A DNA stretch of 50,749 nucleotides, from contig JAGOQF010000002.1 in NCBI GenBank assembly GCA_017991615.1, positions 1-50,749 on the forward strand. The letters are read 5' to 3'. Every line of letters begins with the position of its first letter. Position 1 is the stretch's first letter. Made by a program: the position numbers and the translations under genes. Shown here piece after piece: positions 1 to 30,944 of this stretch. The notes under the pieces were generated by a model that did not search any database, was not told the DNA's origin, and saw only the letters and a list, made by a program, of their open reading frames with translations. This DNA is from Candidatus Shapirobacteria bacterium (lineage in GTDB: Bacteria > Patescibacteriota > Microgenomatia > UBA12405).

Positions 1-497
<497 letters not shown>

Positions 498-3072: not shown

Positions 3073-3144
3073 TCCAGCAGGTTGGAGTTGAACCAACTTA
3101 CGACAGTTTTACAGACTGTTGCCTAACCGTCCGGCTCCTGCTGG
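3073..3144 (-). tRNA. tRNA-Tyr (anticodon GTA), archaeal/eukaryotic-like form
   Basis: The minus strand folds as a cloverleaf: acceptor CCAGCAG/CTGCTGG, D-arm GCC/GGC with GG in the loop, anticodon stem ACAGT/ACTGT with loop CTGTAAA (anticodon GTA), a five-base variable loop CGTAA, T-arm GTTGG-TTCAACT-CCAAC, and discriminator A. CCA is not fully encoded (A-C-A follows the stem). Bacterial tRNA-Tyr is normally a class II tRNA with a long variable arm and G1:C72; this one has a short variable loop and C1:G72, as in archaea and eukaryotes. Positions 8-9 are GA instead of the usual TA, and the D-arm is slightly irregular. Confidence 0.88.
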
Positions 3145-3225: not shown

Positions 3226-3612
3226 ATGCAGGAAAGACTGGGATTGAGAATCCCAGATTTGGAAACTAAAAATAGAGCAGTTAATCCAAATACGGGAGCA
3301 TTGATGCCTCATAGTGTATCTAGTCATAGAAATGGTGTTTTTAGAGAAAATGGTAATAGATTTGGACAAGGGACATTGTTTCCTACACACATAAAATCGG
3401 GAGATATAACTAAAATTGAAAGGATGGTAGCTTTGGAATATTATAAATTTCGAAAAGGTCGGGAATCAAAAATTTTAAGCTGTCAGAATGCCGGTGGAGC
3501 GGACAGAATTACTATGAATTTGAACCGATTTGGGGTGAAAATAATTGGTTCATTTGTAAGAAGAGGTAGTTTGTGTACAGTTTTTCCTGAAGAGAGTAAA
3601 GAACGAATTTAA
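3226..3612 (+). CDS. Small protein of unknown function (128 aa)
   Basis: I do not recognise this protein. It is soluble and basic, with no signal peptide or membrane segment. The middle is rich in Gly, Asn and Arg (SHRNGVFRENGNRFGQG, about residues 33-49), and two Cys are near 84 and 116. It stops 16 nt before exonuclease III on the same strand, so both may share a transcript. The start at 3226 is the only in-frame ATG at this end; no clear Shine-Dalgarno site precedes it. Codon choice resembles the flanking genes, which supports it being real, but without a family match a spurious frame cannot be fully excluded. Confidence 0.55.
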   Translation: MQERLGLRIPDLETKNRAVNPNTGALMPHSVSSHRNGVFRENGNRFGQGTLFPTHIKSGDITKIERMVALEYYKFRKGRESKILSCQNAGGADRITMNLNRFGVKIIGSFVRRGSLCTVFPEESKERI

Positions 3613-29033: not shown

Positions 29034-30944
29034 ATGGGTTTAGACAACTTGCCAAAATTAGGCTTATCTCAGACAGTAAAAGAAAAAGAAATAAATATAC
29101 AAGATATGGATCTTTTTAATAGAGGATCTTTATCTAACCTTAGAAATAGATTGCTTAGTGATGATGCTTCAGAAAGGAGATATATGTTTGATGATTGTAT
29201 TGATATGATTGGTCAGGTTGTTTCGGCAAATGTGGAACAATTTAAAAATCACCATAATAATAAACAAAATACATTTCATAAAGAGAATCGAGAAATTCAA
29301 AGGTTACTATACCTTGAAGGAAATGAATCTGATATTGAAAGTATCTTAAAATTAACGTTTTGGACTAATAAAATGGCAAAAACTTATAATGAAGTCCTCT
29401 CTTCTGAAAAAGAAATTCTTGGACAAGAAGAACTTGTTTACTTTGAGAGAGGTGAAACCTGGTCGTATGCTCTAAAGAATGAATTTATGTCGACTCTGAT
29501 TTATCTTTTGATTAAAGATAATTATTCTGAGGTTAAAAGCTGGGGTTTTAGGAAAGGTAAAAATCCAATTCTAATTATTGATTACCCAGGTTACAACTTT
29601 CCTATTTCTTTTCATCTTGGTAAATACCCTGAAAATATTTTACCAAGAGAATTGGGTGAATTGGTTTTTGATAAAACTAAAGATGATTTCAAATATCCGT
29701 TTGATATTAAACCAAAAGGGAATTCGGTTAGCCACAAGTTAAATGAACAAGAAAAAACGGATTATCAAAGAGATTTTGACAATGAACAAACTTTTAAATC
29801 CCTTGAGAAAATTCAAAAACATCAAATATTGGTTGGGTTAGGAAAAATTAGCGAGTTGGAAACTCTATACTCAATAAAACTACCTTTAGAAGGAAGTTTA
29901 AATATAGAGCTTGATAAAAATTTTTTAACTATTAAAGATTTTGAATTTAGAAAAAAATTAGAGGAAATGATTATAAAAAAGAAAGGGGTAATTTATATAC
30001 AAAAGGGTAATAGGTTGAGTAAACATGCAATAGAATATTCTTTAAATAATTGGTGGAAAGAAAATTACTCTGATCGCAGTGATTTGGAATTTAGGGAAAC
30101 TAGACCTGGGGAAATTTTTCCTGGTGAAATTAATATAGATAATACAAAAAAGTCTGGTGAACCGTTTCAAATTAGAGAGGACGGAACTATATGTATAGAT
30201 TCTATAAGAGACAGAAGAATGGGGACTAGATCATCAATACAAAATTTAGCTAGATTAGGTTTTTATTTTCCTCAACAAATAATTGATTATGCTAATAACC
30301 CAAAGTTTAGCGAAATGATGATTGATCCAAATTATGGATTTGTATACGCTAATTTTGGTTATTTAAGAGGTAAAAGATTGTTTGATTTTGCTGAAGAAGG
30401 TTTATTAGACAAAAAGTTGACTCCTGAAGATTTTCAGCGTTATGGTCTAAAAGAAGCGTATGAAAAACAAAAACAAATTTACGAAACTTCTTTAAAAGAA
30501 ATTATGGAAAATACGGAATTTTTTGAAGGAAAAGATATAAAAAATGAAAAAATAAAAGTTGCAATTGTTTCTAAGGAGGTTATGAGTGGTTCTTATATTT
30601 GCTACTACAAATACGACTGTGATTATTATGTTTCTTTTGAGATTGTGTCTGAAAATAAAGTTAAATTTTCATGTATGGTTAATAGAGAAAAAGGGATAGA
30701 AAAGTTACCAGATAAGATGGTCCAGAAAATGAGACTTATTAATGAAAAATTAAAAAGAAATATCAGAAAGGAGGAAATATATATTCAAGAGAATAATCAA
30801 ATGATTTATATTGGTGGGTACAAAAATCCAAATAATTTACTTTATGTTTCAGATTTATTGGATGTTGATTCAAATACTTATGATTCCAAAGAACTGGCTG
30901 GAAAATTAACCGAATTCTTTAAGGAAGGATTTTTTGACACCTGA
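29034..30944 (+). CDS. Large protein of unknown function (636 aa)
   Basis: I do not recognise this protein. It is soluble-looking, Lys/Glu/Asn-rich, with no signal peptide or membrane helix and no repeat. Features seen: an Asn/His-rich patch (KNHHNNKQNT near 71-80), a likely beta-rich middle (NPILIIDYPGYNFPISFHLG, about 181-200), the segment PFQIREDGTICIDSIRDRRM near 383-402, and a Cys/Tyr-rich patch GSYICYYKYDCDYYVSFE near 519-536. Codon use (more CTT, TCT, CCT) differs from neighbouring housekeeping genes. It is followed by a decayed tRNA-Cys copy and the intact tRNA-Cys, so it is probably a horizontally acquired accessory gene. Confidence 0.78.
   Translation: MGLDNLPKLGLSQTVKEKEINIQDMDLFNRGSLSNLRNRLLSDDASERRYMFDDCIDMIGQVVSANVEQFKNHHNNKQNTFHKENREIQRLLYLEGNESDIESILKLTFWTNKMAKTYNEVLSSEKEILGQEELVYFERGETWSYALKNEFMSTLIYLLIKDNYSEVKSWGFRKGKNPILIIDYPGYNFPISFHLGKYPENILPRELGELVFDKTKDDFKYPFDIKPKGNSVSHKLNEQEKTDYQRDFDNEQTFKSLEKIQKHQILVGLGKISELETLYSIKLPLEGSLNIELDKNFLTIKDFEFRKKLEEMIIKKKGVIYIQKGNRLSKHAIEYSLNNWWKENYSDRSDLEFRETRPGEIFPGEINIDNTKKSGEPFQIREDGTICIDSIRDRRMGTRSSIQNLARLGFYFPQQIIDYANNPKFSEMMIDPNYGFVYANFGYLRGKRLFDFAEEGLLDKKLTPEDFQRYGLKEAYEKQKQIYETSLKEIMENTEFFEGKDIKNEKIKVAIVSKEVMSGSYICYYKYDCDYYVSFEIVSENKVKFSCMVNREKGIEKLPDKMVQKMRLINEKLKRNIRKEEIYIQENNQMIYIGGYKNPNNLLYVSDLLDVDSNTYDSKELAGKLTEFFKEGFFDT

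Follow-up and report, generated by a model that had tools for sequence, protein, structure and literature searches.

The window, the whole 50,749-nucleotide stretch analysed, comprises positions 1-50749 of contig C7 (119,724 bases) in a metagenome-assembled genome (MAG) of Candidatus Shapirobacteria bacterium consisting of 677,457 bases in 19 contigs and 95% complete. The features relevant to its tRNA-Tyr gene are as follows, with bases named by tRNA position.

1..497, minus strand: bacterial 16S rRNA gene, 5' portion only, truncated at the contig end (RF00177, 355.9 bits)
3073..3144, minus strand: tRNA-Tyr gene, anticodon GTA, 72 nt, positions 1-73, identified by ARAGORN and the Rfam tRNA model
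3144, minus strand: C1 of the identity pair C1:G72, from the sequence
3073..3074, minus strand: G72 (3074) and discriminator A73 (3073), from the sequence
3110..3112, minus strand: anticodon GTA (34-36); the next base is A37, also seen in bacterial tRNA-Tyr with a variable arm (V-arm)
3098..3102, minus strand: variable loop CGTAA, 5 nt, its last base (3098) being A48, opposite A15 (3130)
3137, minus strand: G8, in contrast to U8 in the genome's 43 other tRNAs
3131, minus strand: G14, co-varying with position 8 (G-G in place of U-A)

The tRNA-Tyr gene runs from position 1 at 3144 to position 73 at 3073, with the ARAGORN call also including 3072, and scored 53.0 bits against the Rfam tRNA model (gathering score 29). 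The acceptor stem is CCAGCAG/CTGCTGG followed by A73, and CCA is not encoded at the 3' end. Minimum-energy folding alone did not recover the D and anticodon arms of the cloverleaf, which is supported by the tRNA covariance model and by comparison of relatives. Bacterial class II tRNA-Tyr has a long variable arm and G1:C72, whereas this gene has a 5-nt loop and C1:G72; ARAGORN, the Rfam model and the sequence itself confirm the first-pass annotation of a GTA tRNA with these two features. Its further description of the tRNA as the archaeal/eukaryotic form holds for C1:G72 and the short loop but not for the tRNA body, which looks bacterial. Two open frames in the window, one of 128 aa adjoining the tRNA-Tyr gene (3226-3612) and one of 636 aa (29034-30944), had no Pfam match. 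All 44 tRNAs of the genome were typed and only one has a GTA anticodon; no second GTA tRNA, and no class II tRNA-Tyr, was found among them. As the genome is 95% complete, a second tRNA-Tyr or TyrRS could sit in the missing part.

Two class Ic synthetases are encoded in the genome. The only TyrRS (371 aa, C7:68215-69330) lies on the same contig as the window. It passes the archaeal/eukaryal model NF006330 (376.7 bits, cut-off 220) and fails the bacterial model TIGR00234 (99.7 bits, cut-off 113.8), its only domain is PF00579, with no S4 domain detected in the domain search, and its best solved relative is the Pyrococcus horikoshii TyrRS (2cyc). No bacterial-type TyrRS was found elsewhere in the 95%-complete genome. 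An archaeal-type TyrRS, one of two options suggested in the first-pass annotation from the tRNA, is present in the same bacterial genome, and neither of the two findings named there as contrary evidence, an ordinary bacterial TyrRS and a second, class II tRNA-Tyr, was made. Alignment to the M. jannaschii TyrRS (sequence identical to 1j1u) revealed equivalents of R132, Q173, R174, K175 and D286, residues which we take to contact the acceptor end or the anticodon; among the 38 archaeal-type TyrRS from bacterial hosts that were compared, R132, R174 and D286 never vary. These data suggest that, in this bacterium, tyrosine is very probably attached to a C1:G72 class I tRNA by an archaeal-type TyrRS, presumably through contacts with C1:G72. 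The TyrRS stop codon is overlapped by a gene for the epoxyqueuosine reductase QueH (PF02677; L034:5328-5855, contig C7), and the TyrRS genes of L042 and L043 are also adjoined by a frame looking like QueH; in tRNA-Tyr the wobble base is G34, at which this enzyme finishes queuosine synthesis. An archaeal identity for tryptophan as well was considered and rejected, the TrpRS on C13 being bacterial (it satisfies TIGR00233) and the genome's own tRNA-Trp having the bacterial A1:U72 and G73. Elsewhere, paired adjacent TrpRS-like frames were observed (G008:C8, G025:C36 and G032:C30; 392-394 aa beside 347-502 aa), possibly the arrangement of TrpRS-A with a bacterial TrpRS described in PMC5370408.

The genomes nearest by TyrRS that bear a name are Ca. 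Shapirobacteria (Microgenomates, CPR), and contig C7 is bacterial since the 16S 5' part at 1..497 is bacterial, both pointing to a CPR host. Such a locus might also result from archaeal DNA mixed into the bacterial bin or from a damaged copy of the tRNA gene, as the MAG is split into 19 contigs and CPR and DPANN bins are at times cross-contaminated (PMC5370408). However, tRNA-Tyr and TyrRS lie on one contig together with 16S and many bacterial genes, which excludes contamination in binning, and nearly every genome of the family has the same tRNA/TyrRS pair. An assembly or binning artefact of either kind is accordingly vanishingly improbable.

Relatives were examined in a sample of 44 genomes from the order. 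Nearly all genomes of family f1 encode a TyrRS of the same clade (67-82% identity) and a C1:G72 tRNA-Tyr lacking the V-arm, and the tRNA-Tyr of family f5 (G039) is V-armless too. Across the order, C1:G72 is present in 35 and A73 in all of the 36 V-armless tRNA-Tyr. Families f3 (G036, G040) and f4 (G041) have a TyrRS of the same clade (100/98 support) and C1:G72 together with a V-arm of 14-15 nt. An RpoB tree resolved the groups f4, (f3,f2) and (f5,f1), each at support 100. Five genomes contain a second, distant archaeal-type TyrRS with 38-39% identity to that of the window's genome (G003:C29, G014:C58, G011:C3, G038:C8 and G048:C32), which replaces or joins the first type; both are present in G011 and G038. 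Two tRNA-Tyr(GTA) genes are present in genome G024, one an ordinary C1:G72 copy and the other (L105, G024:C8:410820-411048) with A1:U72. One divergent bacterial-type TyrRS, about 30% identical to others, was observed in an otherwise archaeal-type family (L135, G034:C37), in a genome where tRNA-Tyr was not found; it may represent transfer or contamination. A relaxed scan of eight genomes in which tRNA-Tyr was missing revealed no clear tRNA-Tyr.

The origin of the V-armless tRNA-Tyr was assessed region by region over 66 bases, leaving out the variable loop. For 31 of 35 the nearest sequence was a V-arm C1:G72 tRNA-Tyr of families f2-f4, and for one of 35 it was an archaeal yardstick, of which there were two only, one of them from M. 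jannaschii. Mean matches were 50-52 of 66 to the f2-f4 V-arm tRNA-Tyr, 46.0 to the own genome's tRNA-Cys, the only tRNA-Cys used in each comparison, and 42-45 to the two archaeal tRNA-Tyr. Import of the whole tRNA and TyrRS pair from a DPANN archaeon would account for the archaeal type of the enzyme, which shares 47% identity with its nearest archaeal relative in the scan, from archaeon CG07_land. However, the tRNA body is less similar to archaeal tRNA-Tyr than to the V-arm tRNA-Tyr of sister families, A37 is present here and G37 in both archaeal yardsticks, and the V-arm is kept in sister families with the same TyrRS clade; import of the pair is improbable, and the tRNA-Tyr is probably not an archaeal import, judging by these similarities. 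Recruitment of a tRNA-Cys, through a single GCA-to-GTA change in the anticodon and a new acceptor stem, would be consistent with tRNA-Cys ranking first in similarity to the V-armless set among the genome's other tRNAs, with the short D-loop and C59 T-loop in common, and with the odd G15-G48 found also in E. coli tRNA-Cys (PMC9976931). The D-arm is about as similar to tRNA-Cys as to V-arm tRNA-Tyr. Overall similarity to tRNA-Cys is nevertheless lower than to the f2-f4 V-arm tRNA-Tyr, and the f5 tRNA-Tyr (G039) matches the V-arm tRNA-Tyr of genus g16 at 16 of 18 bases in the D-arm and 17 of 17 in the anticodon arm, making this recruitment very improbable. The closeness of the V-armless set to the f2-f4 V-arm tRNA-Tyr points to a tRNA most likely native to the lineage and an enzyme brought in from outside; with two yardsticks only and tRNAs being short, the bacterial origin of the tRNA body is supported, not proven.

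The U8-A14 tertiary pair is near-universal in tRNAs. In the 36 V-armless tRNA-Tyr, the 8-14 combination is G-G 24 times and U-A 12 times with no mixed cases, and positions 15-48 are A-A in 22, G-G in 10 and other combinations in four, whilst U8-A14 and G15-C48 are found throughout the 16 V-arm tRNA-Tyr. The mutual information of 8-14 and of 15-48 was reached by none of 20,000 shuffles (32 distinct sequences). On the TyrRS tree, which may differ from that of the tRNA, positions 8 and 14 switch together in five of five independent pairs and 15 and 48 in five of six, with a sign test p of 0.0625, so few pairs being unable to pass 0.05. A G8-G14 combination is odd for a working tRNA and counts against our preferred explanation of a functional tRNA-Tyr. 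No tRNA paper describing G8-G14 covariation was found in the literature, a search that is weak as evidence of absence, and we have moderate confidence that this co-varying core is undescribed so far.

To what extent C1:G72 signals an archaeal TyrRS was apparent from a survey of 147 genomes of the class, in which a bacterial TyrRS was absent in 16 of 21 genomes with a G72 tRNA-Tyr and in 5 of 77 with C72 (Fisher p 3e-10, a value that overstates independence because the genomes are related). The five G72 exceptions with a bacterial TyrRS are G035, G042, G070, G089 and G172, and C1 was confirmed in the last three. In all, V-arm C1:G72 tRNA-Tyr and a bacterial-type TyrRS occur together in six genomes from three families: G035, G042 and G043 (f2), G070 (f29), and G089 and G172 (f10). 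The three f2 genomes, of genus g16, yielded no archaeal-type TyrRS, and an S4 domain was found in the bacterial-type enzymes of G035 and G043. The G172 assembly (completeness 94%), whose single 1.10 Mb contig was read from end to end, encodes one tRNA-Tyr, with C1:G72 and a V-arm, and one intact bacterial TyrRS; no archaeal-type TyrRS was found in it. The enzymes of G070, G089 and G172 form one clade, separate from the g16 enzymes (100/100), indicating that at least two lines of bacterial enzyme live with C1:G72. An archaeal TyrRS is not strictly implied by C1:G72, and the proposal that this pair marks an archaeal enzyme was correct for the window's genome but, given these mixed cases, is no proof alone within the class. 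As g16 is nested among archaeal-TyrRS lineages in the RpoB tree, the simpler reading is that it went back to a bacterial enzyme; a kept intermediate state is the less simple one. With moderate confidence we consider the coexistence of a bacterial-type TyrRS with C1:G72 tRNA-Tyr to be new here.

Taken together, the gene in the window is in all likelihood the sole tRNA-Tyr of this Ca. Shapirobacteria bacterium, a home-grown tRNA that was rebuilt and would receive its tyrosine from an archaeal-type TyrRS gained by horizontal transfer and reading C1:G72, A73 and the anticodon with no variable arm needed. We infer the following order of events. An ancestor of the order with a bacterial class II tRNA-Tyr would have changed its 1-72 pair to C1:G72, and the same ancestor would have gained the archaeal-type TyrRS. 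With recognition by the S4 domain gone, the f1/f5 lineage may then have dropped the variable arm and shortened the D-loop, and its core would have been rebuilt to A-A or G-G at 15-48 and U-A or G-G at 8-14. On balance, we lean towards a joint reading of the Shapirobacteria tRNA-Tyr as a natural class II to class I conversion enabled by the enzyme swap, in which U8-A14 gave way to co-varying G8-G14 and R15-Y48 to A15-A48 or G15-G48, and in which some lineages of the class that now use a bacterial-type TyrRS kept the C1:G72 mark after losing the archaeal enzyme.

Tyrosine identity has long been cited as a domain-specific rule of the code, and the example of the CPR bacteria shows it to be exchangeable. 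The order and class hold side by side G1:C72 with a V-arm and bacterial enzyme, C1:G72 with a V-arm and either enzyme, and C1:G72 without a V-arm and with an archaeal enzyme. If G8-G14 pairs as we suppose, these tRNAs would provide a natural test of the need for the tRNA elbow once the synthetase ignores it.

The archaeal-type tyrosine system of Shapirobacteria is itself already published: Mukai et al. 2017 (PMC5370408) described CPR bacteria with C1:G72 tRNA-Tyr, many with a V-arm, and an archaeal/eukaryal-type TyrRS, listed Shapirobacteria among the groups with such an enzyme, and noted one Roizmanbacteria genome having C1:G72 tRNA-Tyr both with and without a V-arm. The present system is alike in enzyme type, identity pair and lineage name; the G8-G14/A15-A48 core and the combination of a bacterial-type TyrRS with C1:G72 tRNA-Tyr are not in the text of that paper. 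For the mixed cases in other families there is a parallel in the human mitochondrial and Plasmodium apicoplast TyrRS, which are bacterial-type and charge C1:G72 tRNA-Tyr (PMC9976931, PMC6310243), although these are organellar and such a state is absent from the window's genome. Precedents for the unusual core bases are G15-G48 in E. coli tRNA-Cys (PMC9976931) and G8 in Desulfitobacterium tRNA-Pyl (PMC7609411), which concern other amino acids and other folds; in tRNA-Pyl, G8 serves as a linker of a single base, but in the window it co-varies with G14 in a normal cloverleaf. The archaeal pairs of M. jannaschii and P. horikoshii share with the system described here C1:G72, A73, a class I tRNA, a TyrRS without S4 and the conserved TyrRS residues of the acceptor and anticodon regions, but the tRNA of the window differs in its bacterial-looking body, with A37 and its nearest similarity to V-arm bacterial tRNA-Tyr, and in its abnormal core.
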